64,000 nucleotides of DNA from a virus (IMGVR_UViG_3300042673_001035:1-64000); one strand, 5' to 3'. Positions 1-62,677 are shown, counted from the first letter of the stretch. Notes: generated by a model from the letters alone, not told the origin. Translations and numbers: made by a program.

Positions 1-844
1 TGAAAATTACAATTTCCTTTACTCTACCCTCATCTTCGATTCTTTTTATTTTTTCAATAAATTTATCAACTAAACTATCAGGTATTCCTAAATTAGAATT
101 TATAGCTAATTTTAATTCTGTGTTTGGATTTGGTTCATTTATAATATAATCCAATACACCCCAAGTATCTTTTGATAATAATGGTTCTCCTCCAGTTATT
201 CTAAATGTATGTAAATCTCTATATAGTTCCGGCCACCACTTCCAAAATGCTTCTACATATGGATTTGTATCTTTATGTGGAATTGGAAATTTATCTTCTA
301 TTTTAAGCCATTCATTTGAGTTAAATCTGTCGGTTGTTGGGTAATGTCCAAATTGTTCAATCTCTTCAACCCATTTGGAACTATATGCGGGGCCACAATA
401 AGAACATTTAAAATTACACGCATTTGAGAAAGAAACTTCTACATATTTTGGATTATAATCTTCTCTCCAATCCGAATTAAATATTTCTTCTTTAAATGGA
501 TAAGACCAACTTTCACCGGATTTAAAAACTCTATCACTAAATCTATCCGAATTATCTTCGACATTCCAACAATAGTCACACTCAGTAGGTCTTGCACCAC
601 TCAACATTTCTTTTCTCTTTAATTTTTTAAATCGAGTATTGTGAAGTGCAGATGGATTTCTAGCTATTTCAACTTCTGAAATTTTATGGGTTTTTGGATG
701 GTGACATGAGTGATTATGTCCACTTTGTAATTGTAAAGTTACTTGAGTCCATTTTGCCAAACACATACCAGTACCAACTGCATTTAATTCATCTCTTACT
801 TTTACATATAGTGGGTTTTCTATATATGTTTTATCATCACTCAT
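1..844 (-). CDS. Radical SAM enzyme, C-terminus cut by window edge
   Basis: The minus frame is open from ATG at 842-844 to the window edge, about 281 codons. Near residues 140-147 it has the radical SAM cluster motif CNFKCSYC (CxxxCxxC) inside an EVSFSNACNFKCSYC context, followed by a TGGEPLL glycine-rich motif around residue 220. Both are hallmarks of a 4Fe-4S AdoMet enzyme. An additional early block with Cys and His residues (GHNHSCHHPKTHK, then ARPTECDYCW) is typical of phage and bacterial SPASM/twitch-type relatives. The start overlaps the end of the upstream glycosyltransferase by 8 nt, so it belongs to the same operon. The substrate cannot be read from sequence; the context suggests modification of a glycan or peptide. 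Confidence 0.85.
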   Translation of the reverse strand, partial: MSDDKTYIENPLYVKVRDELNAVGTGMCLAKWTQVTLQLQSGHNHSCHHPKTHKISEVEIARNPSALHNTRFKKLKRKEMLSGARPTECDYCWNVEDNSDRFSDRVFKSGESWSYPFKEEIFNSDWREDYNPKYVEVSFSNACNFKCSYCGPAYSSKWVEEIEQFGHYPTTDRFNSNEWLKIEDKFPIPHKDTNPYVEAFWKWWPELYRDLHTFRITGGEPLLSKDTWGVLDYIINEPNPNTELKLAINSNLGIPDSLVDKFIEKIKRIEDEGRVKEIVIF

Positions 845-2255
845 AACTTATTGTTTTAACATTTATCATTTTATGTCTGTTATAAATAGTGTCAATTGAA
901 ATAAATTCATATTTCATATTATTTATTCCGTCATTTTTATAATCAATTTCACCTTGTTGCATTTTTAATATATATCTCCTTTCATTTTTCGCGGTGGTTT
1001 CACCTTTTGCCCATTTATCAATTCCACCTTCGGTTATCAACCCCTCCGTTTGATGTGGTAGACATCTAAATTTACCATCTCTTCTATAAGGTAATATTGT
1101 ATGTGGTATTTCTATTTTTTCTTTTTTTAATTCTACATTTTCAAAATCACCAAATTCCAAATTCATAGTAAAAATATCTAATACTAAATTTTCTTCAGGA
1201 GTTTCTTTATGTATGTTTTTAATTTCTTCAGGAGTTAAACATCTATTCCACATTTGTATACTTGCAACACCACCTTTGAAAAAAGATTCGACAGGTGATT
1301 TTGAATATCCCACATAAAATGGTTCCATACCATATCTTTTAAGTGGTTCATTGTATAATAGTGGTGATTGTGTTCCTGTTCCTAGTCTTGCATCACTTTC
1401 TCTACCATTTAAGTAGAAATGTATTTTTTTATTTTCTGTGTCAACTGACATTGTAATCCAACTCCATTGATTTTCATATCTTTTAATCCATTGATATAAA
1501 TGTCCTTTCATTCTATCCCATAGTTGCATTGTATATGCCCTACTATTATTAAAAGATAAACCCCAATCATATCCAGGTTTTCTAAAAATAGGATATTCTA
1601 TAAATTGTCTATTGGTGTCACCGATTAACCAGATAGGTACTTTTTCAATTTGTTGTTCTGCTTTTACTAAAATAGAAATTGTATGAGATTCCGATATACA
1701 ATTTTTTTGTTCTCTGCTAGGTCTAAACTGAATTTTTGAATCTACCCCATTAAAATATGCAACATATTTTTCTTTATTAAAATCTAATTTAGTTTTTTCA
1801 GCATAACCTTCCATCACACATCTCCAAAACAAATCATCATCTTCCATACCCCAATCCCAATAACCATTTGAATATCCATTGGTTCTTTCTACTTGTTCTT
1901 TTGAAAAGAGGACTGCACCTCCAAAGTATTCTTCATATTTTAATTGATAATCGGATTGTGAAATTCTAACTGCAATGTGTTGTGGATTCCCTTCTGGAAA
2001 CGAATAATCACAACTATTATCCTCAGGCACCATATCAATATCATGCCAAACTATATAATCACACCCATCATCAAATGCATATTTGGCTGCAATGTTTTTC
2101 ATCAAACCTCTATTAAAAAGTTTATCATCACATTGGTGTGCTAAATAAATTGTATGTTCAATCCCTCTTTCTTCTAAAAACTTAGTAACATGTGGAATAA
2201 ACTCATTCATATGAGCTTCTCTATTTCTATATGGTACACAAACTCCTAATTTCAT
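837..2255 (-). CDS. GT7-type galactosyltransferase fused to LamG-like domain
   Basis: The N-terminal about 170 residues match the beta-1,4-galactosyltransferase (GT7) layout: CVPYRNR near the start, FNRG around residue 48, HDIDMVPED (metal/donor site) around 72 and WGMEDDDLFWR around 137. This fold transfers a sugar from a nucleotide sugar to an acceptor glycan. Residues about 185-350 form a laminin-G/concanavalin-like sugar-binding domain, ending in the typical IQMWNRCLTPEEIKNIH motif. The fusion suggests a transferase with its own carbohydrate-binding module. The gene overlaps the next gene by one base (ATG/stop) and is a tandem paralogue of the upstream neighbour. The exact sugar and acceptor are unknown. 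Confidence 0.85.
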   Translation of the reverse strand: MKLGVCVPYRNREAHMNEFIPHVTKFLEERGIEHTIYLAHQCDDKLFNRGLMKNIAAKYAFDDGCDYIVWHDIDMVPEDNSCDYSFPEGNPQHIAVRISQSDYQLKYEEYFGGAVLFSKEQVERTNGYSNGYWDWGMEDDDLFWRCVMEGYAEKTKLDFNKEKYVAYFNGVDSKIQFRPSREQKNCISESHTISILVKAEQQIEKVPIWLIGDTNRQFIEYPIFRKPGYDWGLSFNNSRAYTMQLWDRMKGHLYQWIKRYENQWSWITMSVDTENKKIHFYLNGRESDARLGTGTQSPLLYNEPLKRYGMEPFYVGYSKSPVESFFKGGVASIQMWNRCLTPEEIKNIHKETPEENLVLDIFTMNLEFGDFENVELKKEKIEIPHTILPYRRDGKFRCLPHQTEGLITEGGIDKWAKGETTAKNERRYILKMQQGEIDYKNDGINNMKYEFISIDTIYNRHKMINVKTISYE

Positions 2256-3550
2256 TATATTCCAACATTTAAATGTATTATATTATTTTGGTTAGTCTTA
2301 CCATATAATTTATATTTTGATAAAGTTGTTAGTCCATCGATTTTTCTATCTCTAGAACCTATTTGTACTTCATTATTATATCTTAATTGATTCCACCTAC
2401 TATTATCGTCTTGCCATCTACCATCATTAAATCCACAATCTTTATGTTCCAATTTTATCAGTTTACTATTTCGTCTAAATGGAATATATGAATAGTAATT
2501 TACAAATGGTTTAAAATAGTCTAAATAAATATTGAAAAATTCGGCGTCATTTTCATTACCAGAAATATCAGTAAATTTATATTCGTTGATATCATAATTT
2601 TTGTAATGTATTTTTATTTCATCATTTTGTTTTAATGAAAATTGATTTAGACTGCCTTTGAAAAAGTGTTTTTTATCATCATCGGAACCAATTATTATAT
2701 TATCTGCATTTGAATAATTGTATATGTGATTAGAAAGTTCAATAGTATGTAAACTATTATTTACTGAAAAATTAATGATGTTTTTTTCTTTAATGTACTC
2801 AATCAATATTTTATTATTAGATACCGTTACGATATCCGAATAAACATCATAGTAATTACCTTTTTTATCAAACAATTGTAAATAAAATCTATTAAAAGAA
2901 TTATAAAAAAGTTTGAAATCATAACCTTTTATTGATAAAATGGGAAATATATCAAATTGTAAATTTTCATTATAAACAACTCTAGCCAAATTGATGTCCA
3001 ATTCTATTTTAAAACTTCTATTATAATTTATAATATTAGGCATTTTTGCATAAGCATTAACACCATTAAAAATGGGTAATTTTTCTTTAGTAAATGTATC
3101 ATTTATAATTTTTGCAAATGGGATATTTTTTCTTACACATCTATATCTTAAATCATCATCCTCAAATCCCCATCCCCAATATAAATTAGAAAAACCATTT
3201 ATCTTTTCAAATACATCAGTAGGGAATAAAGTCATTCCACCAAAATAGGATTCAAACGGAATATTATCTGTTGCTAAATGAACTGGTACATTAGAATATG
3301 AATAATCAACATCAACCGGTATCATATCAACATCATGAATTACTATATAATCACAATTTTCTTTTTGTGCTTCTATGAATCCAATGTTGCACAACATTCC
3401 TCTATTAAAAAGTTTAGCATTATCTTGTTCGACAATAATAATTTTAAAATCTATGTTTTTGGATTCTAAATATTCTACTATACTTTTTGTAAACTCTTGC
3501 AAATGTTCATACCTATTTCTGTATGGAACTATTACACCAAGTTTATGCAT
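2255..3550 (-). CDS. GT7-type glycosyltransferase with LamG-like domain (paralogue)
   Basis: This has the same architecture as the following gene. The GT7-like N-terminus carries IVPYRNR, FNRG, HDVDMIPVDVDYSY and WGWGFEDDDLRYR. The C-terminal part (about 170-330) resembles a LamG jelly-roll, with IIGSDDDKKHFFKGSLNQF. The protein is more AT-rich and Asn-rich than its neighbour and clearly diverged, so this is an old tandem duplication rather than a recent one. The start overlaps the end of the 83-residue upstream gene by 8 nt. Both enzymes probably act on related acceptors. The LamG assignment is weaker here than in the sister gene. Confidence 0.78.
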   Translation of the reverse strand: MHKLGVIVPYRNRYEHLQEFTKSIVEYLESKNIDFKIIIVEQDNAKLFNRGMLCNIGFIEAQKENCDYIVIHDVDMIPVDVDYSYSNVPVHLATDNIPFESYFGGMTLFPTDVFEKINGFSNLYWGWGFEDDDLRYRCVRKNIPFAKIINDTFTKEKLPIFNGVNAYAKMPNIINYNRSFKIELDINLARVVYNENLQFDIFPILSIKGYDFKLFYNSFNRFYLQLFDKKGNYYDVYSDIVTVSNNKILIEYIKEKNIINFSVNNSLHTIELSNHIYNYSNADNIIIGSDDDKKHFFKGSLNQFSLKQNDEIKIHYKNYDINEYKFTDISGNENDAEFFNIYLDYFKPFVNYYSYIPFRRNSKLIKLEHKDCGFNDGRWQDDNSRWNQLRYNNEVQIGSRDRKIDGLTTLSKYKLYGKTNQNNIIHLNVGI

Positions 3551-3794
3551 CCTTTTTATCTTTTGGTACTAATTTGTGAAATTCAGACAAATAGTATTGA
3601 ACTCTACTACTCCAATCATCTTTATCAATTTCTTCAAACCAAACCGTAAGAGCATCTAATGAATTTGCAATCTTTTCTAAAGCTTTTACTTTTTTAGTTT
3701 CAAGCATTAACAATTCTTCATTTGAAATAATAGGAGTTTGTTGTGGAATTTCACTTTTAACAACTTCTGGTGTTTCTTTTTTCTTTAAAGCCAT
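3543..3794 (-). CDS. Hypothetical 83-aa protein
   Basis: A small hydrophilic protein with no recognised family. A Lys/Pro/Glu-rich N-terminus is followed by a predicted helix (MLETKKVKALEKIANSLDAL) and an aromatic segment (WFEEIDKDDW). It is the first gene of the operon running into the two GT7 proteins. A 31-nt promoter-like box (3812-3842) ends 18 nt before its ATG. It might be a chaperone or adaptor for the modification enzymes, but nothing in the sequence proves that. Confidence 0.6.
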   Translation of the reverse strand: MALKKKETPEVVKSEIPQQTPIISNEELLMLETKKVKALEKIANSLDALTVWFEEIDKDDWSSRVQYYLSEFHKLVPKDKKDA

Positions 3795-3811
3795 AACTTA
3801 TTTATTTTTAG

Positions 3812-3842
3812 TAATATATGATTTTTTATTTGTATTGCCAAA
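3812..3842 (-). promoter_or_regulatory. 31-nt promoter-like box
   Basis: Read on the minus strand, it begins TTTGGCAAT and ends CATATATTA with the same 31-nt length as six other boxes in this window. The TTTG and TATATT elements are 20 nt apart, comparable to the Bacteroidetes TTTG / TAnnTTTG promoter. It lies just upstream of the 83-aa gene and directly abuts the stop codon of the preceding gene (stop at 3843). Confidence 0.6.
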
Positions 3843-4691
3843 TTATATTGCAATAATTTTCTTAAATAATTTATTCCATTGTTTATATTCAAATTCTTTT
3901 CCTATATATTCAAACATATATTCACATTCTGTAACATCTATTTCAAAATTGTTACTTCTTAAAGATTGATACATTTTTAAATATTCATTTGAAAAAGAAT
4001 AATCCTTTTTAATATCTGCAACTTGTTTAATTCTTTTAATACATGTTGAATCCCATTTAAAATGGTGTACCTGTACATTATATTCATCCACAGGTGCAAT
4101 TAAAGGGTGGTTCCAACCTTGCCATTTCCATGTAGTTTGGCCGTCTATCTTTGCATAGTGTTGACCAGGTGTGATTTCAATATAACCTTTCATTATACAT
4201 ATTTTATTTGGACATGCACCACTCATTGGATATCTAAAAAAGCCTGCAACTGGAAATTGGTCAAATATATTTTCTTTTTTATTGATTTTAGGAAAATTAC
4301 CAGTCTGACCTATTCTATCTATAAAACCACCTCTAACTAATTCCCAACCATTCCTATCACAGGCTGAAATAATTTCTTTTAAAGGTTTTGAGTAAATATG
4401 TAATTCATCATCATCAGAAACTATCCACCAATCATTAGGAAATAACATTTTGGTTTCGTTATATAATTGAGTAACATATTCCCAATTGAATTTTTCTTTA
4501 GTTACTCTTTCTATAATATGTACATTCTCAAATTGTTTTGTAATCTTAGAAACTTCTTCGAATAAACTAAATCCTTCCCATTCATAAACTACTACATATA
4601 TTTCATCTACCAAATCTTTATAATGATTTAGCATGTGCCACAAAGTGTCTACCCTGCTGCCAGTAACTGTAACTAATCTTAGTTTATTCAT
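3843..4691 (-). CDS. Glycosyltransferase-like protein with DDDE motif
   Basis: The 282-aa protein opens with LRLVTVTGSRVDTLWHML and has a GT-A-like metal/nucleotide-sugar site, WWIVSDDDELHIYSKPL, around residues 87-103. A later HHFKWDSTCIKRI segment is also seen in phage-encoded GT2-like proteins. It is likely a nucleotide-sugar-dependent transferase of the GT-A fold, though the family is not certain. It is the last gene before the 31-nt promoter box and sits 21 nt after the methyltransferase gene, in the same modification block. Confidence 0.65.
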   Translation of the reverse strand: MNKLRLVTVTGSRVDTLWHMLNHYKDLVDEIYVVVYEWEGFSLFEEVSKITKQFENVHIIERVTKEKFNWEYVTQLYNETKMLFPNDWWIVSDDDELHIYSKPLKEIISACDRNGWELVRGGFIDRIGQTGNFPKINKKENIFDQFPVAGFFRYPMSGACPNKICIMKGYIEITPGQHYAKIDGQTTWKWQGWNHPLIAPVDEYNVQVHHFKWDSTCIKRIKQVADIKKDYSFSNEYLKMYQSLRSNNFEIDVTECEYMFEYIGKEFEYKQWNKLFKKIIAI

Positions 4692-41519: not shown

Positions 41520-42002
41520 TTAAATTAATGAACTTAATTTTAAATTTTTAGATACCCATACTGCCATTATTTCTCTACAACCAGATGTTATTTCTTTAAC
41601 TTCATGATATTCGGTTTTGCCGTCAAATGTTACCATATCTCCTTTTTTAAAATCAATCAACTCTTCATTAACATATAATTGTCCCCCTTCAAAATTATCA
41701 TTTAACATAATCAAATATGTTTTACTTGATTTGATGTCCAAATGTTTTTTAGCAAAATATCCAGATTCATATTTTATATAATGTAATGAATATATTATTT
41801 CATCTTTTTCTAATGTTATATATTTTGATATGGTATCGACCAATATATTATTAGTTAAATCACAATAAAATATATCTTTTAAATTTATTACGTTTTTAAA
41901 ATCGTGATATGATTTTATTTTATTGTTTTCATTTCCAAAATTATAATTTTTTAATATTATATCAATATCGTTATAATCAATTTTATTTTTAAATATCTCC
42001 AT
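41520..42002 (-). CDS. 2OG-Fe(II) oxygenase A
   Basis: The 160-aa prolyl-hydroxylase-like oxygenase has the iron triad His87-Asp89 (AKKHLDIK) and His133 (TEYHEV), and 2OG-binding Arg143 (GCREIMAVW). The jelly-roll strands between (YLIMLNDNFEGGQLYV) match P4Hc-type small oxygenases. These hydroxylate protein side chains, sugars or nucleobases. It is one of four such genes within 4 kb, each with the full set of residues. It is the last gene of the modification island. Confidence 0.85.
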   Translation of the reverse strand: MEIFKNKIDYNDIDIILKNYNFGNENNKIKSYHDFKNVINLKDIFYCDLTNNILVDTISKYITLEKDEIIYSLHYIKYESGYFAKKHLDIKSSKTYLIMLNDNFEGGQLYVNEELIDFKKGDMVTFDGKTEYHEVKEITSGCREIMAVWVSKNLKLSSLI

Positions 42003-42005
42003 AAT

Positions 42006-42629
42006 TTATATAATTTTATTTGTTTTATTCTCAAATTTTACAATTGGTTCATTCGTATTTAATAAACTATAAATTTTTTTGTAAAAGTCATAACAACCTT
42101 GCCAACCTGGATGCCAATCCATTGGATTACCCCCTTCATCCGCAATAGAAGATACTTGTATTAATTCTACAAACTCTTTTGTTTTTTCATAAAAATCATC
42201 ATTCCACGTTACAAATATTGGTTCATATTCTTTATAAAAATATTTTAACTTTTTAATAAATAGTATTTCATCGTTTCTACCGTCAGCAAGCCAACTTTCC
42301 GTTTCTTTAACTCTTAATTCTAATAATTTTTTTGCAAACGATTTGTCTTTATACCACTCCCAATTTAAATATTTTATATTGTGATTCGTTTCTCTATCTC
42401 CAAAATATCTTCTTGGAAATCTTCCAGGTGCAGTAAATACGATTACGATTCTATCTCCTTCTCTATGATTTGGAATATTTCCAGTTTGATAAACTATTGA
42501 ATGATTATCAGAACCATATTTACCGAAATTTATAATATTATAGTGATTAGATAAATAATCAACCCAATGTATTTTAGGTAAATCCCAATCAACAAAGCTA
42601 TCTCCACATATATAAAGGTTTGGCTTCAT
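42006..42629 (-). CDS. SGNH/GDSL-like hydrolase
   Basis: The 207-aa protein has block I YICGDSFVDWDLPKIHW, FGKYGSDNHSIVYQTG (Gly/Asn blocks) and a C-terminal GGNPMDWHPGWQG, where DxxH supplies Asp and His. The short length and Trp-rich active region are shared with the other phage SGNH proteins here (5428, 49911, 62030). It may remove or attach acyl groups from a glycan. It overlaps the upstream oxygenase gene by 4 nt. Confidence 0.75.
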   Translation of the reverse strand: MKPNLYICGDSFVDWDLPKIHWVDYLSNHYNIINFGKYGSDNHSIVYQTGNIPNHREGDRIVIVFTAPGRFPRRYFGDRETNHNIKYLNWEWYKDKSFAKKLLELRVKETESWLADGRNDEILFIKKLKYFYKEYEPIFVTWNDDFYEKTKEFVELIQVSSIADEGGNPMDWHPGWQGCYDFYKKIYSLLNTNEPIVKFENKTNKII

Positions 42630-43126
42630 ATTAATTTATTTGTTTCTAATTTTATGTGTTCATTTTGTAAAAACCAAATTAATGAATATCTATCTCCTTC
42701 TAAAATGGGTGTTATTTCGTGTTCAATTCTTACATCAAATATATAGGTATTTCCTATTTCTTTATTTAACACATATTCATCCGAATTATATAATTTAAAA
42801 TTTCCTCCCTCAAAATCATCATTCAATAATACACCCACTGCGTAAACTCTATTATCTCTAATATCATTATGTTTTCCAAACCATGCACCTTTTGTAAATT
42901 TATGAAAATGTATCCTTTTGTTTATTGTTCTGATTGTAATGTTTGTTTCCTTTTGTAAAAACTCCTTCAACTTATCAAATAACCAAATAGTATTTTTATT
43001 ATATTCTATACTCATTGATTCATACATTCTATCTTTATAGTTCCAATTTTGTTTTTTTGATTTTGATATATCAATAATTGATTGACATTCTTGTTGATTA
43101 AATAATATTTTTTGTTTTAATATCAT
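42626..43126 (-). CDS. 2OG-Fe(II) oxygenase B
   Basis: The 166-aa protein has the iron triad His86-Asp88 (FGKHNDIRD) and His136 (RIEHEITP), and Arg146 (GDRYSLIW). The GVLLNDDFEGGNFKLYN segment gives the same fold as oxygenase A, of which it is a diverged paralogue. It is embedded with 4-nt overlaps on both sides between an SGNH protein and a radical SAM enzyme. Confidence 0.87.
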   Translation of the reverse strand: MILKQKILFNQQECQSIIDISKSKKQNWNYKDRMYESMSIEYNKNTIWLFDKLKEFLQKETNITIRTINKRIHFHKFTKGAWFGKHNDIRDNRVYAVGVLLNDDFEGGNFKLYNSDEYVLNKEIGNTYIFDVRIEHEITPILEGDRYSLIWFLQNEHIKLETNKLI

Positions 43127-44181
43127 AAAAGTTTTGATAAGTTTTTTCTTAATTTGTGTTTTTTAATTATATCATTCATATTATGAATGCACATTTGATT
43201 AAAACAAACTTTATTTATTTGATTTAAAAATTCTTTAAATTCAGGGTGTGATTCTGACCATATTTGTTTTATTAAAAATTCACCATCTGTATATGTTCCC
43301 CAATTTGTAATTTTATTAAAATATATTTCAACCTTTTCTTTAAGTATATTTTTCATCAATTTATAAAATGAGTCCATCTCTGTGTAATTTGTATCTTGTA
43401 CAACGAATGAAGTTCTAACTTTTTTTATTGTTTCACATTTAGAAATAAAATTTAAGTTTTCAATTAAAACGCCCCAATCCCCACCTCTTCTAATAATTTC
43501 ATATGTTTTTTGAGTTGATGCATCTATACTTATTTCTATTGTTTTTATTAAATGGTGTATGTGGCTTAAACTATTCCACATTTTTTCATTTAATAATAAT
43601 CCATTGGTATGTAAATGAATTTGTTTTATATTTGGGAATTTTTTATTATCAAAATTTAGTAATAATTTTCTAATTGATTTGGATGCAAATGGGTCTGCAG
43701 AACCTGAAAGATATAACATCTTTATATTTTTACCATAAACATCAACAATTTTATTTATTGTATTATCAATAAATTCCAATTCCGCTCCATCCGCCATAAT
43801 TGCCACATTTCTACAAGATGGACATGATAGATTACAACTTCTATCAAATGCAAAATTAATATTAGTCGGGCCGTTTTTATAATCATTAACATTAAAATTG
43901 GTTATATGTTTAAACCCCTGTGGTATGTTTTTATTAATTAACAATTCAGACAAATACGGACATTGTGTTTTTGAACAATATTTGTATGAACCATCTAAAA
44001 TTGATTCTTGTATTTTTTTTAATTCGTCACTCTCCCAAGCAGTTTCAATATCTTTTAAATTGGAAATTTTATTGGGTAACCAAGATGGACAACAACTATA
44101 TATTCCATTTTTATGTGCTTCTAAATATTCAAATGGAGTTGTACATATATATTTTTTTAGTATTTCTTCGTTTGTATCCAT
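43123..44181 (-). CDS. Radical SAM/SPASM-type enzyme
   Basis: The 352-aa protein has the cluster CNLSCPSC (CxxxCxxC, residues about 117-124) in INFAFDRSCNLSCPSCRN. It also has YLSGSADPFAS (GGEP-like position), LHTNGLLL and SIDASTQKTYEIIRRGG, all standard in the AdoMet radical core. Extra Cys near the N-terminus (YSCCPSW; SKTQCPYL) and C-terminus (NKVCFNQMCIHN) suggest auxiliary clusters as in SPASM enzymes. Such enzymes make thioether, C-C or epimer changes in peptides, or process sugars. It lies centrally in the oxygenase island. Confidence 0.9.
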   Translation of the reverse strand: MDTNEEILKKYICTTPFEYLEAHKNGIYSCCPSWLPNKISNLKDIETAWESDELKKIQESILDGSYKYCSKTQCPYLSELLINKNIPQGFKHITNFNVNDYKNGPTNINFAFDRSCNLSCPSCRNVAIMADGAELEFIDNTINKIVDVYGKNIKMLYLSGSADPFASKSIRKLLLNFDNKKFPNIKQIHLHTNGLLLNEKMWNSLSHIHHLIKTIEISIDASTQKTYEIIRRGGDWGVLIENLNFISKCETIKKVRTSFVVQDTNYTEMDSFYKLMKNILKEKVEIYFNKITNWGTYTDGEFLIKQIWSESHPEFKEFLNQINKVCFNQMCIHNMNDIIKKHKLRKNLSKLL

Positions 44182-44187
44182 TTCATC

Positions 44188-44775
44188 TTACATTAATGTT
44201 TTTTTATTTTTGAAAGCTGGAATAGTAAATAAAACATTTGCTGCGATAACAACTCTATCCTTATCCGAATTTGGAGATGTTTCGGGTCTATGATATAACC
44301 CTGCAGGGAAAACAAATAGTTCATCTTCTTCAGGTAAAATGAGTATATCTTGTTCATTATGTATAAACCCCAATCTACCATCTTTTTTTTCTAAATTATT
44401 TGGCATTTGAGCATAATATGTAAAGGTATAATCACTTATTATGGAACTTTTGACTGTTTTTGAAAATTCCATATGATTATGCCAATGGGATTGTGTAGTG
44501 TCACTTCTTAATATAAGAGCCCATGGATAGATACAATAATCTGCATTTTCAATATTTTTATCTTTATAAAATAACTCTTTACATTTTTCTACACCAAAAT
44601 TAAGTATATAATCTATCTCTTTACATTTTAATATAAGCTCTGTTTGGATACCTGGATAGTCGTATGATAAATTATGAGAAAATAATCCTACATTTTCATA
44701 AATTTTTCTAATCAAATCTTCCTTTACAAATGGAAAATTTACTTTGTATCTATGTACATTCATTTCATTAATCAT
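44188..44775 (-). CDS. 2OG-Fe(II) oxygenase C (TIGR02466-like)
   Basis: The 195-aa protein has the iron site SHWHNHMEFS (His99/His101) and His162 (GLYHRPETSP), with Arg174 (KDRVVIAANV) as 2OG contact. The pattern WxHxH...FPxxLxHxVxP matches the putative 2OG oxygenase family common in marine phages. It differs from the P4Hc-like genes A, B and D, so it probably does a separate reaction. The start overlaps gene D's end by 4 nt. Confidence 0.78.
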   Translation of the reverse strand: MINEMNVHRYKVNFPFVKEDLIRKIYENVGLFSHNLSYDYPGIQTELILKCKEIDYILNFGVEKCKELFYKDKNIENADYCIYPWALILRSDTTQSHWHNHMEFSKTVKSSIISDYTFTYYAQMPNNLEKKDGRLGFIHNEQDILILPEEDELFVFPAGLYHRPETSPNSDKDRVVIAANVLFTIPAFKNKKTLM

Positions 44776-45386
44776 ATTAAGCTATTTTTACTTTTTATTT
44801 TAATATCGTTTTCAATAATCCAACCACTTATTGAATATCTTTTATAGGTTTTATCAACTATTTCATCGACGAGATGTAAATCTTTAATATTTTCAACATC
44901 AAATATATTTAAACTATTAAATTTAGGTAATAATTTATGTGTAATATTATCATTTTTATCAACAAATTGCAAGCACCCACCTTTACTTTCATCTACATCT
45001 TTTGTTAAATTATAAACAAATGCATATTTTCTATCAAACACCGAATCATTGTGTTTTGAAAGAAAACTACCATATGTATATTTTGAAATAAAAATACTTT
45101 GAGGTATGAAAAATTTGTCATTAAGTAAATTACTTAATTTAAATTCAAAATTTAACATTTTTAATAAATCATAGATAAATTCTGTATTTTCAATCTTTTC
45201 AAACCAATAAGAAAATTCACCTTTTTTAAATTTAGATTTTTCAAATTCATAAGATTTTTTATGATTAGAAGATGTTATCCAATCTTGTTGTGAATCTATT
45301 ATTTTATATATAGTTTCTGCAGTTTGTTCAGATAAAAAATTTTCTATCTGTGTTGGTTTGGTTTTTAATTCTTCTATATAATTCAT
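44772..45386 (-). CDS. 2OG-Fe(II) oxygenase D
   Basis: The 204-aa protein has an iron triad at His112-Asp114 (LSKHNDSVFD) and His171 (DLHLVDEIV), and Arg183 (YKRYSISGW). The central FVYNLTKDVDESKGGCLQFV is the usual strand with GGxL. It is prolyl-hydroxylase-like, with an N-terminal helical extension of about 70 residues. It is the fourth oxygenase of the island, 3 nt downstream of a sulfotransferase-like gene. Confidence 0.82.
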   Translation of the reverse strand: MNYIEELKTKPTQIENFLSEQTAETIYKIIDSQQDWITSSNHKKSYEFEKSKFKKGEFSYWFEKIENTEFIYDLLKMLNFEFKLSNLLNDKFFIPQSIFISKYTYGSFLSKHNDSVFDRKYAFVYNLTKDVDESKGGCLQFVDKNDNITHKLLPKFNSLNIFDVENIKDLHLVDEIVDKTYKRYSISGWIIENDIKIKSKNSLI

Positions 45387-45389
45387 ATA

Positions 45390-46076
45390 TTATATTAAAT
45401 TTATTTTATTTTGAAATCTTGATTCAAAGGTATTCCATAAAAAATTTTTTAAATCATCGTTTAATATAATTTTATTATTTTCTTTTTTTGTTTCATTAGT
45501 TTTTACTATTTTTAATTCTACACCAAATTTTTGGTATATAAAACTTGTAAATTTATCTAATTCTGTAATATCAAATTCGTATGTACATTTTTCATTTTCA
45601 GTCCAAAAGTTTTTAGAACCAAAAATACATAAAGTGCCAGTTAAATTTTTATTTATTTTAGTAAAAAAACCATTGTAACAATCCCGCATTTCTTCTAAAT
45701 TTTCTGAATATATTGCATTTGCAAAATTAGTATTGAAATGTTTGTAGATAAATTCATTATCAACATCTTTCCAATCTATAATTAGTTCATTTTTATGTGT
45801 GTTTTTAGAAACATCAAAAAAAAATTCTAATGCACTTAACCATCTATCAAACCAATTTCTATTAATACAAAACGTTTCTTTTATTCCAAACTCATTTATA
45901 CATTGACTTTTTCTTAAATGGTAGTGTTTTAAATTACTTTTACTATTTTTAATAAATGATTCTATTAAAGGTGATTTTTTAATTTTTAAAACTGACGATT
46001 CAAATGAATTTATTAAAGAAACAGATGCACACCTTGGTATTGAAATCCAAATAAGTTCGTTATTTATGAGTAACAT
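45390..46076 (-). CDS. Sulfotransferase-like protein
   Basis: The 228-aa protein has an N-terminal PSB-loop-like WISIPRCASVSLINSF (compare PKCGTTSL) that would bind the 5'-phosphosulfate of PAPS. CINRNWFDRWLSALEFFFD matches the RNPxxRxxSxY 3'-phosphate motif. This supports a carbohydrate-type sulfotransferase fold. A sulfated glycan or Tyr could be the product. It is preceded by the 89-aa Cys-rich gene and followed by oxygenase D. Confidence 0.72.
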   Translation of the reverse strand: MLLINNELIWISIPRCASVSLINSFESSVLKIKKSPLIESFIKNSKSNLKHYHLRKSQCINEFGIKETFCINRNWFDRWLSALEFFFDVSKNTHKNELIIDWKDVDNEFIYKHFNTNFANAIYSENLEEMRDCYNGFFTKINKNLTGTLCIFGSKNFWTENEKCTYEFDITELDKFTSFIYQKFGVELKIVKTNETKKENNKIILNDDLKNFLWNTFESRFQNKINLI

Positions 46077-46088
46077 ATTAAAATATTT

Positions 46089-46358
46089 TTATAGTAACCT
46101 CTTTGATTCTGATTTTACTTTTGTAAAAAATTCATCATCTACATCTTTCCATTTACCTTTTGGACATGGATTTTGATTCTCTGAAAATATTTTTTTGGAT
46201 ATCGGACACCCACATGCCGAACAAATAGGTTTTGTTAATATAAGTTTTTTATACTCACATCCATTACATATGTTAGCTCTATTTAATGCCAACAATCTTT
46301 GGGATTCAGTTGGATTAAATGAAATTATCCAAGCATTAATTATTTCAGTAAAATTCAT
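46089..46358 (-). CDS. Small zinc-ribbon-like protein, 89 aa
   Basis: Six cysteines form CNGCEY, CSACGC and PCPKGKW, consistent with a small zinc-binding fold (CxxC near 33 and CxxCxC near 50). The CPxGKW ending is found in small phage proteins of unknown role. It could be an adaptor or a metal-binding carrier for the neighbouring enzymes. No function is assigned. Confidence 0.7.
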   Translation of the reverse strand: MNFTEIINAWIISFNPTESQRLLALNRANICNGCEYKKLILTKPICSACGCPISKKIFSENQNPCPKGKWKDVDDEFFTKVKSESKRLL

Positions 46359-46378
46359 AACTTATTAATTGAAAAAAT

Positions 46379-46456
46379 TTAAGAATTGTCACTTACTATT
46401 AATGCACCTATTTGGGTCATTATAGTATTAATTGTTGTAATTTCTTGTATAGTCAT
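46379..46456 (-). CDS. Possible 25-aa peptide
   Basis: A short frame begins at ATG 46454-46456 and runs MTIQEITTINTIMTQIGALI then VSDNS before TAA. A TATTTATA box (46479-46486) lies 22 nt upstream, like those before late genes. It lies between the zinc-ribbon gene and the ATP-grasp/Hint protein. It may be random, or a small peptide such as a modification substrate; too short to judge. Confidence 0.25.
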   Translation of the reverse strand: MTIQEITTINTIMTQIGALIVSDNS

Positions 46457-46477
46457 TTTATTAAATATTTTATTTTA

Positions 46478-47986
46478 TTATAAATACAAACAAACTCTAC
46501 CACCATCATAACAAGGGTTATTATAATTGTAAGTACAGGTTTCGTACATTTTATTACATCCACCAGCTCCGATACCAAATACGAAACAACGTTGGCATTG
46601 AAAGTTATGTTCGATTGCTACAAACATACCATCATCGGTTTTAGTTAAGAATAAGTGTTCATCCTGAACTCCAATCTGCCATCCATCAAATCCTTCTACA
46701 CTATTTGTTATATTTGTTACAGTTTTTTCGTTTACTTCAATTGTTTCTAAATTATCCGTTTGTACTAAAAGTATTTTATCACCTATTTGTAACATATCTA
46801 CTTCTTCATCTTCGGAATGAAGTTTTGTCCATTTAACAATATCACCTCTCTTTATAAGATATTGTGATATGGATGTATCCTGCCATGTTGTATTATCATC
46901 AAATGTAATTGTTGTCATTGGTGATAATACATTTGATTTTGTTTTAAACTGAACGACATTTGTACTAAATGTTGAATTTGATAAAAATTCATTAAAATCA
47001 ACTTGATAATTTCGTAATTCGTTTGATGAATCTAAATTTGGTTGATTTTCATATAATTTAATAGTCTTTATTATATCACCAGCTTGTAATTCTAATCCTG
47101 TTTTATATGTACCATCTGCCATCATTACCAAATCGGTGTCTAACAATTTAGGCCTACTAATATCTTGGGTGTTTGTGATATATGACTTTCTAAAGTTTGA
47201 GTCTATTTCGAAAGTTTCAGAATTATAAGTAACATTATCATACAATTGTACATTACCATGTTTAGTATATGCACCAATTGAAATAGATTCTAATGTCGAT
47301 GGATATAATAAATTATATGAACGAACTATACTGACTACATTATTTTCAATTTTATTTAAATTTAAATGATACTCCATTAAAAAATATTCATCGGTTACAT
47401 TTTGTAATACCACATCTAATTCTTCCAATGTAGTTACTTTATAAAATTTAGGGTATTCGTTTCTGTCGTATACCGGATATTTAGCTTTTAAAATAAAATT
47501 TGGATGTACTCCATTATCCGATATCGTTGTTATATTTGATATAAGTTCGTCATTTTCATTTTTATATGCAAATTGATGGCCAAATTCAGTAGATTGGATT
47601 AACTTTAAAAAATTAACTTTATCCTTACAATAAGTTTCATCCAATATCGCCGTAACATCATATGCACTTCTTATAATTAGATGTGTATCGGAATCATCAA
47701 CGTGTGGGATAGTTATATTACCACCTACTTCCTCAAAAGCATATTCAATATTTAAACCAGTACATAAAATTTCTAATTTATCGTGAAATTGTCTTATGCC
47801 ACCAATATATGTTACTTTAGTAAAGTTATTGGTAGTTATGAAATTGGATAATTCATCTAAATTAAATAAACTATTATATTGTTCTTGTGTTAGTCTGTTG
47901 ATACCTGAATTTGTGTTTGTTTCAATTGGTAATAAATTACCTACCGAATTATATACAAAGTCGGTTCCTAATAATACTGTTCTCAT
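46478..47986 (-). CDS. ATP-grasp-like/Hint-like protein with Cys-rich tail
   Basis: The 502-aa protein has an N-terminal part (about 1-270) that looks like an ATP-grasp arrangement (KVNFLKLIQSTEFGHQFAYK, NFILKAKYPVYDRNEYPKFY, EYFLMEYHLNLNKIENNVVS). Around residue 280 a Hint/intein block A-like segment appears, LLDTDLVMMADGTYKTGLEL then QAGDIIKTI, but the usual nucleophile Cys is absent. The last 41 residues hold six Cys (CQRC, GGC, ETC, NPC, RVC). A TATTTATA box lies 20 nt upstream of the ATG. It could be a self-processing virion protein or a peptide substrate/ligase in the island; both are inference. Confidence 0.5.
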   Translation of the reverse strand: MRTVLLGTDFVYNSVGNLLPIETNTNSGINRLTQEQYNSLFNLDELSNFITTNNFTKVTYIGGIRQFHDKLEILCTGLNIEYAFEEVGGNITIPHVDDSDTHLIIRSAYDVTAILDETYCKDKVNFLKLIQSTEFGHQFAYKNENDELISNITTISDNGVHPNFILKAKYPVYDRNEYPKFYKVTTLEELDVVLQNVTDEYFLMEYHLNLNKIENNVVSIVRSYNLLYPSTLESISIGAYTKHGNVQLYDNVTYNSETFEIDSNFRKSYITNTQDISRPKLLDTDLVMMADGTYKTGLELQAGDIIKTIKLYENQPNLDSSNELRNYQVDFNEFLSNSTFSTNVVQFKTKSNVLSPMTTITFDDNTTWQDTSISQYLIKRGDIVKWTKLHSEDEEVDMLQIGDKILLVQTDNLETIEVNEKTVTNITNSVEGFDGWQIGVQDEHLFLTKTDDGMFVAIEHNFQCQRCFVFGIGAGGCNKMYETCTYNYNNPCYDGGRVCLYL

Positions 47987-48032
47987 ATTTTATGTTTCTA
48001 TTTGTCTATAAATATAAATTAATTAAATAAAA

Positions 48033-49832
48033 TTATATTATTTTTTTTCCATATTGAGGTTTTGGAATATCGTTTAAGTCTTCAAATAAGATAATAGGTT
48101 CTTCAATGGTTTCAATCTCATTTGAGATTATAGTGTATGATTGTGATCCTGTTTCTTGTTTTTCTTTTAATTCTAAATATAATCCTCTATTATAGATTGA
48201 ATATGGTATTCCTATTCTTTTAAATGTCTCCTCAGCTTGTTCAATTCTTCTTAACCTATCCATTGGTGTATTCCACTTTGTTGTGAAATTAACACCATTC
48301 TCATATTCTAAATATTGTTTCTCCACATCTCTCCACTTTACTAATAGAGTTTGATGTAATAAAAATACGGAACAGGTTACTATTTCTGCCATACAATCTC
48401 TAAATTCCTCTACAAAGTCTAAAGTTTTTTGAAAATCTTCATCGGTTTCGTTTAGATATCCAACAATGATTTGCATACCAAACAACAATGGATATTCAAA
48501 TTCAGTTCCCTTATTTTCTTCATTTACCTTTCTTACATTTTCAAAAATTTCTCTCACACCTTGAACATCGGTGTATTTTTTCATATGTTTAAGAACTGGT
48601 TCGGAATAAGATTCGAATCCTGTAATAAACTTTGTTAGTCCTGCTCTACGATATAATCTTATAGTTTCTATATCTCTCATTTGAGATTGTAGTCTAACAT
48701 TACCACCGATATTAATATCTAATCCTCTTTCGATAATTTTTTCACACAATTCTTTTAACCACTTTGGATTACCATTGATAATTGAATCGTGACAAAAGAA
48801 ATACTTCTTTCCTTTTGCAACCCATCCTTCTAATTCCTCTAACACATTTTCAACGGTTCTATATCGGTATTCAGGTATATAATCCGGTACTGAACAAAAC
48901 GAACAACGATAAGGACAACCTCTACTCATTGTAATAGGTTTAGTGTCCTGATAAACTGACTTATAATAAAAATTATCTTCTAAAGAACTATAATCCGGAA
49001 TAGGTAATGCATCCATTGGAATATTTGCTCTCATTTTATTGTGGATAAAAATACCATTTAATTGCCAAATTAATCCAGGTATAGACATTAAGGACTCCTC
49101 ACTCCAATCTGACTTAAGTATTTCTACAAATGTCATCTCACCATCACCTCTACTGATTGCATCGATGAAAGTATATTCGTTTGTTTTATAATTTGAATTG
49201 GGTAATCTACCAAAGTCTAACACTTCAACACCATTACCACCAATTAAAATTTTAACCTCTGGATATTTTTCTTTTACTAATTTTGCAATTGCAAGTGTTG
49301 CATCTATATTACCATCGATAATACTAAATCCTAAAAATTTAGGCTTTGCTTTCTCTAAATATCTACCAACGAATCCGTATGCAATATCATATGTTTCCTG
49401 AAAATTATATAATAGATGAAACTGACTTTGTTTGGAGTATGTATTAAATAAATTGAAAAACTCACCTTGCTTATCCGGTGGATTTAAAAAGAAATAGTCA
49501 ATTACTGGGTCAATGATTGCAACCCTTAATTCGGGTTCATATTTGTCTATCCAAGACTTTAAACCAACTATGCCGGAATAATAACCTGATTCATTGATAT
49601 TAGGAACTTGTAATAACAAACAATCTTGTTCTTCTATATCTTGAAAATGGAATTTATGTTCTATCTCCAATCCTTTGCCTTTCTCTGCAAAAACAGTTTG
49701 ACGCATATATTGTAGTAAATCGACTTTGATGTCAAATACTTCAACACCACTTTTCATTTGGTCATCTACTCTATTCTCAACTTTTTGAATTTGACTTTCA
49801 ATATCAGGACTAATGATTTCGTCAATTTGCAT
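48033..49832 (-). CDS. B12-binding radical SAM enzyme
   Basis: The 599-aa protein has an N-terminal cobalamin-binding Rossmann part (KAKPKFLGFSIIDGNIDATL; VKILIGGNGVEVLDFGRLP, residues about 150-220). The radical SAM core CPYRCSFCSVPDYIPEYRYR lies near 305-325 (CxxxCxxC), followed by GNVRLQSQM and ITGFESYSEPVLKHMKKY. The classic class-B methylase/cyclase layout performs C-methylations or radical ring reactions on unactivated carbons. A promoter-like box begins 19 nt upstream, making it the start of this unit. The gene is unusual in a phage. Confidence 0.92.
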   Translation of the reverse strand: MQIDEIISPDIESQIQKVENRVDDQMKSGVEVFDIKVDLLQYMRQTVFAEKGKGLEIEHKFHFQDIEEQDCLLLQVPNINESGYYSGIVGLKSWIDKYEPELRVAIIDPVIDYFFLNPPDKQGEFFNLFNTYSKQSQFHLLYNFQETYDIAYGFVGRYLEKAKPKFLGFSIIDGNIDATLAIAKLVKEKYPEVKILIGGNGVEVLDFGRLPNSNYKTNEYTFIDAISRGDGEMTFVEILKSDWSEESLMSIPGLIWQLNGIFIHNKMRANIPMDALPIPDYSSLEDNFYYKSVYQDTKPITMSRGCPYRCSFCSVPDYIPEYRYRTVENVLEELEGWVAKGKKYFFCHDSIINGNPKWLKELCEKIIERGLDINIGGNVRLQSQMRDIETIRLYRRAGLTKFITGFESYSEPVLKHMKKYTDVQGVREIFENVRKVNEENKGTEFEYPLLFGMQIIVGYLNETDEDFQKTLDFVEEFRDCMAEIVTCSVFLLHQTLLVKWRDVEKQYLEYENGVNFTTKWNTPMDRLRRIEQAEETFKRIGIPYSIYNRGLYLELKEKQETGSQSYTIISNEIETIEEPIILFEDLNDIPKPQYGKKII

Positions 49833-49850
49833 GAATATAATAATTTAATT

Positions 49851-49881
49851 AAATATACAAATAATTATTGAATTTTCCAAA
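49851..49881 (-). promoter_or_regulatory. 31-nt promoter-like box
   Basis: The minus strand begins TTTGGAAAATTC and ends TTTGTATATTT, with the family's exact length. It ends 18 nt before the B12-radical SAM ATG and would start transcription of the 48-41.5 kb modification island. Confidence 0.6.
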
Positions 49882-49910
49882 TAAATCAATTTTATTCAAA
49901 AAAATAAAAT

Positions 49911-50558
49911 CTATATTAATGTTGAACCATTGTTATTAATATAATTAATCATTATATCAGCCAATACTTTACAGCCAAATTCGGATAGGTGGTGGTCATT
50001 TATTACGCCTTTTGTTTCATTTATTATTTCCATCTTACCTTTATAATATGACCAATATAAATTATTTACTATTTTACTTTTTTCAAATTCGGAAAAAGCT
50101 GACCAATAAACTATTTTGTTATTTTTAAATGTATAATTTAACAAATCCATCCATCCCATTATTTCTTTTAAAAATAATTCGGAATCTCTATTTACTAAAA
50201 TTTCTTGTAAAGTCCTCTCACTTATAAGTGGTAAATCTGGTAAATGATTAAGAATTATTGTATGGAAAAATTTGTTAGACATATCTGCTAGTCTAAATCT
50301 TGTTATTGATGACCATCCTATTATTATATAATCACCATCTTTGATGTTATTGATTTGTTTTATAATGGAATCTAATATCGTATAATTATCACTACCACCT
50401 TTAGCACAATTTCGAAATGGTAATTCTAAATTATCCGCAAGAATTTCTGGCCAAAATTTGGGTTCATACCCTTTCCATTTGATATATTCATCTGCCCACC
50501 GATAAGATTTATTATATCCCTCAGTATTAGAATCACCAAAAAACCATATCTTATTCAT
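49911..50558 (-). CDS. SGNH/GDSL-like hydrolase (paralogue of 62030 gene)
   Basis: The 215-aa protein has block I KIWFFGDSNTEGYNKSYRW, CAKGGSDNYTILDSI, IIGWSSITRFRL and a C-terminal INDHHLSEFG (catalytic Asp/His). The protein at 62030 aligns along its length (HYINWKGY, GGWDNYSIF, FGWSNSARFRL, IDNKHFSEQG), so the two are recent paralogues placed 12 kb apart. It is probably an esterase or acyltransferase. The G-rich repeat lies just upstream of its ATG. Confidence 0.78.
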   Translation of the reverse strand: MNKIWFFGDSNTEGYNKSYRWADEYIKWKGYEPKFWPEILADNLELPFRNCAKGGSDNYTILDSIIKQINNIKDGDYIIIGWSSITRFRLADMSNKFFHTIILNHLPDLPLISERTLQEILVNRDSELFLKEIMGWMDLLNYTFKNNKIVYWSAFSEFEKSKIVNNLYWSYYKGKMEIINETKGVINDHHLSEFGCKVLADIMINYINNNGSTLI

Positions 50559-50583
50559 ATTTTATAATATTGTTTAAATTAAT

Positions 50584-50630
50584 TGGGGTGGGGGTTGGGG
50601 GAGAAAGTCGTTTTTTAAGAAAATTTTTAG
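50584..50630 (+). repeat. G-tract dispersed repeat, copy 1
   Basis: The plus strand reads GGGGTGGGGGTTGGGGG then GAGAAAGTCG and a T/A-rich tail (TTTTTTAAGAAAATTTTTAG). The same element occurs in reverse orientation at 60104-60151, with C-tracts on the plus strand. It lies in the short gap between the SGNH gene and the 233-aa sulfotransferase-like gene. G-runs could form a quadruplex-like structure; not tested. Confidence 0.75.
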
Positions 50631-50651
50631 AACATACCTTCTATTGATAGT

Positions 50652-51353
50652 CTATATCAATTCTCTTTTTATACTTATTATACTTTTTAATTTCATTTTA
50701 AGATTCAATATATCATCTTCCAATTTATCAATTTCATTTTGTTTTTCCATTAATAAGTCGTATGATGTCAGTCCTCTTTCATTATTTAAAATTCGTTTTA
50801 ACCATAACTCATCTTTGTCACATAAAATATATAATTCATCCAATTTGTCTTTTGATATCATAGATAAAATTTCAACTTTTGATTTAAAATGTTTCATTTT
50901 ATGGGAATCATATAATTCGGGTTTATATTCAATTTTATAATCAAAAAATTCCGACAATTTGTCTAGATGTATCATTTTGAATCCAAAAATATTCCATATA
51001 CGATACAGATTTTTATATAAGTTTGGAGACCAATGTTCGGATTTATCATCAATCATATTTTCAATAATTACATCCAAATTCCAATCTTGTTTACGATTAT
51101 TGGAGGTGTGTATTTTGCCCTCTATATTTCCCCACACATAATCGGTTTGAATCGCCGATATGATATGTTCACACGGATTTCTATATGTTACAATTGAATT
51201 TTGTGTAATATCGATTGGTGGATTAGGTGAATTTGGGTCTATATCCACTTCCGATTGGTTTATCCAATTAGAATTTCTTACAAATCGAATACCACACTTT
51301 GGAATACAAATAATTGGTTCTCTATCTTTATATTCATGTTTTGATAAAATCAT
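50652..51353 (-). CDS. Sulfotransferase-like protein
   Basis: The 233-aa protein has REPIICIPKCGIRFVRNSNW at the start (PKCG PSB loop) and NSIVTYRNPCEHIISAIQTD as the 3'-phosphate site, the layout of carbohydrate sulfotransferases. The C-terminus is a Lys/Glu-rich helix. This is the second such protein of the island; both could decorate the same acceptor. Starts lack a Shine-Dalgarno. Confidence 0.7.
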   Translation of the reverse strand: MILSKHEYKDREPIICIPKCGIRFVRNSNWINQSEVDIDPNSPNPPIDITQNSIVTYRNPCEHIISAIQTDYVWGNIEGKIHTSNNRKQDWNLDVIIENMIDDKSEHWSPNLYKNLYRIWNIFGFKMIHLDKLSEFFDYKIEYKPELYDSHKMKHFKSKVEILSMISKDKLDELYILCDKDELWLKRILNNERGLTSYDLLMEKQNEIDKLEDDILNLKMKLKSIISIKRELI

Positions 51354-61214: not shown

Positions 61215-61757
61215 TTATATTAATTTTCTTTTTGCTTTGTTTCTATTCCTCAATCTATTTGTGTTATCCAATAGGTGTTCATACCTTGTATTCATTATAC
61301 CTATGTAATCCTTTATTCTTTGTATGTCCTCTTTTGTATTATATATCCTTTCGTATGTAACTTGTAAGTCAATTTCTTTTATTCCATTAATTAGTTCGTT
61401 ACGATTATAAATCACATTTTCAAATTGTTTTATATATATTTCGTTTTCTATTATCCATTCATCACTTACTTCATATCCATTACGCCATTCCTTTCGTTGT
61501 GATGCTCTGGTTTGAGATATTGCACATTCCCTTGCATCCGTTCTAGTCAATCCAATTATCTTGTCCCAATTACTGAAATCAATATCTTTTATATTTTCTA
61601 TTTCATTTATCAAATATTTCACTACGATATTATCACCTTCAATAGATTCATTTGTTCGTATTGGTTCGTGTATCATTTTATATCCCAACTCCAATGCTAA
61701 CCATTCATTCAATTGATACCCACCACTTCTCGCCAATGCTATAATTAATATTCTCAT
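61215..61757 (-). CDS. Sulfotransferase-like protein (Stf0-type)
   Basis: The 180-aa protein has MRILIIALARSGGYQLNEWL (P-loop-like ARSG start of Stf0-type sulfotransferases) and KIIGLTRTDARECAISQTRA (3'-phosphate-like Arg/Ser motif). The sugar or lipid-linked acceptor is unknown. It is a third sulfotransferase-like gene, outside the main island, next to another SGNH protein. It may be co-regulated with the 62030 gene. Confidence 0.65.
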   Translation of the reverse strand: MRILIIALARSGGYQLNEWLALELGYKMIHEPIRTNESIEGDNIVVKYLINEIENIKDIDFSNWDKIIGLTRTDARECAISQTRASQRKEWRNGYEVSDEWIIENEIYIKQFENVIYNRNELINGIKEIDLQVTYERIYNTKEDIQRIKDYIGIMNTRYEHLLDNTNRLRNRNKAKRKLI

Positions 61758-62029: not shown

Positions 62030-62677
62030 TTATATTATTTCTTTGTTTTTAATTCTGTTATATTTTGCTTCTAATACTTGGGATAATTTTAATTGTCCTT
62101 GTTCACTAAAATGTTTATTATCTATTTCACCATTGGTTTCATTTTTGATTATTTCAAACTCATTTAAACAATCTGCTTCTAAAGTATTTTTAAATGCTGT
62201 CCAATGTATCACATAGTTATTCTTTAATGTATGGTTTATTAAATTTATCCAATTATTAACCTCACTGTCATATTTTTTATTACTTCTATTTGCTAATAGT
62301 TTCTTTATACTATCCCTATCCATATATTCCGCATCCCTTAACATTCCATTATCATTGGGTAAATAGTTTATCCACTCTCCATTCTTATCGGTTAATCTAA
62401 ATCTAGCACTATTTGACCAACCAAATATAATTAAGTCATCTTTTTTAATTTCTTTTACAACTTTGCAAAAAGATTCAAATATAGAATAGTTATCCCAACC
62501 ACCTACACCATAATTCATTAACTTCATACCCAATCGTTCCGATAATAGTTCACCATATACTTTTGGTACATATCCTTTCCAATTTATATAATGGTGTCTC
62601 CAATGAATTACTTTACAATCTTTATTTGGTAAAAAACTTTCAGTAAAACTATCACCAAATGTCCACAATTTTAACAT
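62030..62677 (-). CDS. SGNH/GDSL-like hydrolase
   Basis: The 215-aa protein has WTFGDSFTESFLPNKDCKVI (block I), YGVGGWDNYSIFESF, FGWSNSARFRLTDKNGEW and IDNKHFSEQG (block V His). It is a clear paralogue of the 49911 gene; the two share length and block spacing. It lies between a small membrane protein gene and the degenerate G/C repeat. A sugar-ester or lipid-ester role is plausible. Confidence 0.78.
   Translation of the reverse strand: MLKLWTFGDSFTESFLPNKDCKVIHWRHHYINWKGYVPKVYGELLSERLGMKLMNYGVGGWDNYSIFESFCKVVKEIKKDDLIIFGWSNSARFRLTDKNGEWINYLPNDNGMLRDAEYMDRDSIKKLLANRSNKKYDSEVNNWINLINHTLKNNYVIHWTAFKNTLEADCLNEFEIIKNETNGEIDNKHFSEQGQLKLSQVLEAKYNRIKNKEII

Follow-up and report, generated by a model that had tools for sequence, protein, structure and literature searches.

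In RiPP pathways, such as those of the sactipeptides, graspetides and glycocins, a conserved leader carries the genetically encoded peptide at its C-terminal end, and radical SAM, 2OG and sulfo- or glycosyl-transfer enzymes adjoin the precursor. Sublancin of SPbeta is a prophage-encoded RiPP with a conventional leader, a protease/exporter and immunity. In polymorphic toxins with a pre-toxin Hint domain, Hint frees a variable C-terminal piece, while conopeptides are built on Cys frameworks whose loops change fast, and come with enzymes of the hydroxylation/sulfation type.

The viral gene cassette described here resembles RiPP pathways in having a conserved leader that ends in a candidate peptide, with enzymes adjoining. 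It differs from them in that the leader is ∼460 aa long and contains a Hint domain predicted to self-cleave, no separate protease or exporter was identified, the genes are phage-borne, two extra parts (M and H) are present, and the Cys residues are even in number and likely disulfide-bonded. With BIL domains and inteins, the precursor-like protein I shares the Hint fold and the C-terminal His-Asn (HN), its best structural match being a BIL domain; unlike them, it has neither an N-terminal Cys nor a fixed +1 nucleophile, joining of exteins is not expected, and Hint always precedes a Cys-rich tail and is linked to modifying enzymes. In contrast to the polymorphic toxins, the piece carried by I is a short Cys-rich peptide and not a folded toxin domain, and neither a secretion-type N-terminus nor an immunity gene was identified. 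The tails are like conopeptides in their Cys frameworks, their fast-changing sequence between the Cys and the hydroxylation/sulfation-type enzymes that go with them; the likeness need not mean common ancestry, and the predicted release mechanism and the organism are other. Sublancin and the cassette would both represent phage-encoded peptide products, with differing precursor architectures.

The chance is put at about even that a small peptide, heavily modified and rich in disulfides, is made by the cassette in a RiPP-like manner, from a precursor that cleaves itself. That it defines a virus-specific peptide class (hypervariable, disulfide-rich, released from an intein-like leader, tailored by phage-encoded oxygenases, one radical SAM enzyme and one sulfotransferase, and accompanied by a universal microprotein partner) is held slightly more tentatively. 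The open-access literature yielded no account of a viral system like this one; the initial view was that no named phage system is known to have this content. No described family combines a precursor built in this way with M and H. No curated RiPP model was matched, so that the cassette does not belong to a known RiPP class; if it proves to be a RiPP pathway, it would form a RiPP class of its own.

Genomic setting and gene content

The window analysed here (64,000 nucleotides; IMGVR_UViG_3300042673_001035:1-64000) is part of a 116,680-bp uncultured-virus record, and its − strand carries nearly all of its long ORFs. The nearest isolates by baseplate protein, Microcystis phage Mel-JY01 and the Flavobacterium phages 'immuto', are just 40–44 % identical. 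Bacteroidota-like signal peptides elsewhere in the genome give a hint of the host, and only that.

A sequence-only reading had marked positions 41520–51353 as an enzyme island, a complete tailoring kit like those acting on ribosomal peptides or complex glycans. The island is real: all 12 ORFs (A–L) were found, all on the − strand, H to A forming a tight, partly overlapping run. Conservation of the core in many viral contigs shows more than chance. A kit of RiPP-like appearance is supported for this core (I, M, H, G, D and the 2OG genes), whereas J, K and L lie outside the conserved unit; the assigned limits were too wide on that side, and a family encoded at 61215–61757 sits in the cassettes of relatives. 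Microprotein M and the precursor-like element within ORF I had been overlooked.

The 61215–61757 ORF (180 aa) is located 10 kb from the island, beside another SGNH protein (62030–62677); in related cassettes its family lies between D and C. In locus L019, an ORF of 185 aa at a comparable position gave a weak Sulfotransfer_3 match (E 0.04).

A promoter/terminator scan gave no excess over shuffles. PADLOC detected no anti-phage defence system, its sole match being a weak one of J to PDC-M51A (E 4e-8). None of the ten ORFs A–J gave an NCBIfam match above the curated cut-off; matches below it were seen for D and J only.

Precursor-like protein I

ORF I (46478–47986, −) encodes an N-terminal domain (47177–47986), a Hint (intein-like) domain (46604–47149) and a Cys-rich tail (46481–46603). 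It had been read as an ATP-grasp/Hint-like protein; the Hint half of that label is borne out by fold, and ATP-grasp is merely hinted at. In the AlphaFold model (mean pLDDT 77) the tail is disordered, and the C-terminal half is a Hint fold closed by His-Asn and followed by the fast-evolving tail. The best PDB match of the Hint region was the BIL2 domain 6y75 of T. thermophila (E 6e-9), followed by inteins and Hedgehog.

His460-Asn461 (46604–46609) is invariant in a 19-sequence alignment, and HN closes the domain in all 105 distinct I proteins in which it was called (for L180 the automatic call took an earlier HN; the true site is MHN before SCWCC...). Across the same 105 proteins the residue at +1 is variable and never Cys. 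The Hint start has no conserved C/S/T. The intein pattern of Cys/Ser at position 1 with Cys/Ser/Thr at +1 was thus not found in I, which retains the Hint fold and the C-terminal His-Asn of BIL domains and inteins. In inteins, the penultimate His (G:6) and the last Asn (G:7) drive Asn cyclisation; when this step runs without branching, cleavage occurs at the C-terminus only, as a side reaction that is known for inteins (PMC4031507). Since I has neither an N-terminal nucleophile nor a fixed +1 nucleophile, its Hint domain should cut at the C-terminus only, freeing the tail; self-cleavage is accordingly predicted after Asn461.

Eight residues of the N-domain are invariant among 64 relatives (D9, E22, N24, T25, R106, D110, K167 and R222). 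A weak RimK ATP-grasp match was obtained for 5 of the 64 members (best E 0.09); a biotin carboxylase match on the E-x-N strand (E 1.6) was lost with a larger profile, and Foldseek searching with the I model returned no ATP-grasp match. The ATP-grasp identity is therefore treated as a lead only. Pfam scans of I identified no toxin family.

The Cys-rich tail

The putative released peptide of the window, FQCQRCFVFGIGAGGCNKMYETCTYNYNNPCYDGGRVCLYL, has 41 aa and 6 Cys. Among 96 distinct short tails (25–73 aa) the number of Cys is even in every case (6 in 58, 8 in 36 and 10 in 2), and evenness was seen again when the first set was clustered at 85 % (26 with 8, 20 with 6, one with 10). The tails are rich in Cys, Gly, Pro, Ser and Tyr; His makes up 0.2 %. 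Cys frameworks are common within clades and differ in spacing between them, tails of a second clade being close to CWCPWNYCGxWCxSxYCPxC.

The tail diverges faster than the body of I (identity 0.57 where the body has 0.84), with a pN/pS of 0.51 versus 0.22 by simple, partly saturated counts; relaxed constraint may account for part of the higher tail value. A diversity-generating retroelement was considered as the source of variation and rejected, as the fetched DNA contained no second tail copy outside I genes. One 211-kb virus (L019/L078, IMGVR_UViG_3300042892_005961) encodes I twice, and the two tails look unrelated.

In most I proteins the chain ends with a tail of about 25–57 aa. In about nine of them, a Peptidase_S74-like chaperone region follows directly (sub-threshold Pfam matches), an arrangement that points to virion fibres. 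These additions give rise to the chief rival explanation, unlikely in our estimate yet deserving of weight, in which the tail is a module displayed on the virion, where it would serve receptor binding, decoration or ejection; Hint and, in some phages, an S74-type chaperone would mature it, and the enzymes would decorate the particle surface. The C-terminus of L113 matches a PHROG 'virion structural protein', and the cassette is on the strand of the structural genes, both consistent with display. Against it, most I proteins end at the tail, no structural domain was found in I besides the S74-like additions, and the window encodes its structural proteins in genes of their own.

Tailoring enzymes and H

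The four 2OG-Fe(II) oxygenases named earlier are of unequal standing. A (41520–42002), C (42626–43126) and F (44772–45386) match Pfam 2OG-FeII (E 3e-9, 1e-7 and 2e-19, respectively) and contain HxD...H...R, which reads HND...H...R in F. E (44188–44775) is a weaker member, identified through PHROG_81 (5e-15), in which HxH...H...R, conserved in 28 relatives, replaces the HxD form. A copy of C (>45 % identical) occurs in 30 of 58 loci.

Both proposed radical SAM enzymes, D (43123–44181) and J (48033–49832), were confirmed by Pfam matches and CxxxCxxC. D has a Cys-rich, twitch/SPASM-like N-terminus and a match to NF033640 below cut-off. J has a B12-binding match, likewise below cut-off; RiPP C-methyltransferase and BchE-type models also matched J below cut-off.

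Two sulfotransferase-like proteins had been proposed, of which G (45390–46076) is tentatively supported and L (50652–51353) is unproven. Some of the 33 members of the G family match Sulfotransfer_2/3/4 (best 5.5e-5), and all seven top PDB matches of its fold are sulfotransferases, but weak ones (E ≥ 0.025). The two SGNH assignments were retained on different grounds: B (42006–42629) belongs to the profile family of K and has GDS and a conserved late His, whereas K (49911–50558) has a GDSL match below cut-off (2e-4). Profile searches of the PDB with G and the SGNH proteins gave no match.

H (46089–46358), the Cys-rich zinc-ribbon protein of the sequence-only reading, does have six invariant Cys in a zinc-ribbon-like arrangement. 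Neither a protease nor an exporter was identified among the island ORFs.

Conservation and distribution

With I, D and J as queries, IMG/VR yielded 43 loci, and the I profile yielded 151 stretches. These contigs are fragmentary, some of them come from similar samples, and only near-identical I proteins were removed; profile scans rely on seed patterns, so that distant relatives may escape. With these bounds, over a hundred viral relatives carry the cassette and I-type proteins are common in uncultured viruses. Among 84,980 bacterial and archaeal species genomes, the I profile picked out a single relative; it lies in a Pelagibacterales MAG, on a contig of 3.7 kb that could be a stray viral one. 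At the sensitivity used, tblastn with I, D and two divergent I proteins had no hit among 50,697 phage records.

In the first locus set, the 6 kb downstream of I were compared with the 6 kb upstream. H was present in 44 of 53 downstream versus 2 of 36 upstream regions, G in 43/53 versus 0/36, D in 28/53 versus 1/36, and 2OG genes in 48/53 (153 genes) versus 9/36; all downstream copies are on the same strand. The H profile matched at least 498 stretches in viral contigs, and I is beside H in 74 of the best 80 homologues among these. H is present throughout the second locus set by construction, because this set was collected through H. Part of the refutation check set with the sequence-only reading came out in its favour: core genes co-occur across many viruses, and their pairwise identities track those of I (Mantel r 0.54 for H, 0.51 for G, 0.52 for D and 0.33 for C). 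The second-clade order, 2OG-G-H-I-M-(SGNH, 2OG)-D, indicates that the content of the cassette is kept while its order changes.

J, K and L were excluded from the core by their distribution across loci and are regarded as separable neighbours. J was seen without I in the fetched stretches of L007 and L009; the L007 contig has an I cassette ∼18 kb away.

Glycosyltransferases often come after the cassette, FkbM and SGNH genes occur in or next to cassettes, and D-like radical SAM genes are present in viral glycosyltransferase clusters with no I in the fetched stretch (L040–L044). Because of these D-like genes and the trailing glycosyltransferases, sugars may be the target of some of the enzymes. 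A fuller version of this idea, in which the whole island serves to tailor glycans (polysaccharide of the host or the virion) and I has no part in this, being some regulator or enzyme, draws on the same gene neighbourhoods and on the sulfotransferase-like genes; it is considered improbable, more so than virion display. The strictest linkage is that of I-M-H-G plus the 2OG genes, and a kit of this kind would explain some enzymes and not I, leaving the putatively released, fast-changing tail with its even Cys unaccounted for.

Microprotein M

M (46379–46456, −; MTIQEITTINTIMTQIGALIVSDNS) is a 25-aa microprotein encoded within the 119-bp gap between I and H; it was missed before, being below the ORF cut-off. 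An unannotated M-type ORF (24–50 aa) follows within ∼80 nt of I in 105 of 105 distinct I genes; in the first set, all 61 distinct I genes had one, compared with 18 % of shuffled gaps. The ORFs form recognisable subfamilies, of which the IG type ends in almost invariant residues ('IGxLI..xNS'). This constraint and a pN/pS of 0.32 over 287 pairs, again by simple and partly saturated counts, mark M as a gene. A scan with the M profile by itself confirmed 7 loci, as 25 aa yield weak E-values. M may serve in docking, folding help or immunity, or as a second substrate.

Proposed pathway

I has the makeup of a ribosomal precursor, with a conserved leader and a variable C-terminal core, and candidate tailoring enzymes are encoded with it. 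In the self-releasing, RiPP-like pathway proposed here, ORF I would act as a long scaffold (N-domain and Hint) bearing the peptide as its C-terminal tail. Hint would keep the last intein step alone, Asn cyclisation at His-Asn, by which the tail would be freed. The 2OG oxygenases, the radical SAM enzyme D and the sulfotransferase-like G would modify the tail before or after release, sometimes joined by SGNH proteins or glycosyltransferases; the tail is thus the presumed substrate of the neighbouring enzymes. H and M may be dedicated accessories for folding, docking or presentation. The tail Cys probably form disulfides, which would be possible only after lysis or in the virion, since the cytoplasm is reducing and no exporter was identified in the island. 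The peptide may be directed against competing phages, rival bacteria or, after lysis, other cells.

Two further explanations were weighed. Even Cys numbers and the zinc-ribbon-like character of H would suit a tail that binds metal (Zn or Fe-S) in a metalloregulator with a Hint relic; this is judged very improbable, as Cys counts step by two (6, 8, 10), spacing varies between clades, His is nearly absent from the tails and the HN of Hint is retained. Least probable of all is that M, which accompanies every I and has a constrained C-terminus, is the modified peptide, with a RimK-like ATP-grasp domain of I acting on that C-terminus, because the assignment, despite the weak RimK signal, is not established and Hint and the tail would be left unexplained. 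The self-releasing RiPP-like pathway is the simplest account that covers every conserved part.

If this account is true, phages produce their own modified peptide natural products, many different ones across uncultured viruses, by a release mechanism that was not found described for RiPPs. The puzzling 2OG oxygenases, radical SAM enzymes and sulfotransferases of phages would gain a testable function, and the cassettes would be a large source of new disulfide-rich peptides and tailoring enzymes.

Additional loci

At 1–4691 of the window, Glycosyltransferase-7-type genes lie beside a truncated ORF at the window start, for which the profile of radical SAM D gave a match (E 2e-30); L040–L044 have clusters of a similar kind. 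GT9/TibC-like glycosyltransferases (L033:11065–12192 and similar ORFs, 371–391 aa) are encoded inside some cassettes, next to D. A second H-like zinc-ribbon ORF (E 2e-10) was identified away from the cassette at L114:1252–1551 (genome 65252–65551), and no second I gene was found in that genome. Fifteen tRNA genes are clustered on the − strand at L115:12829–16496 (genome about 96.8–100.5 kb).
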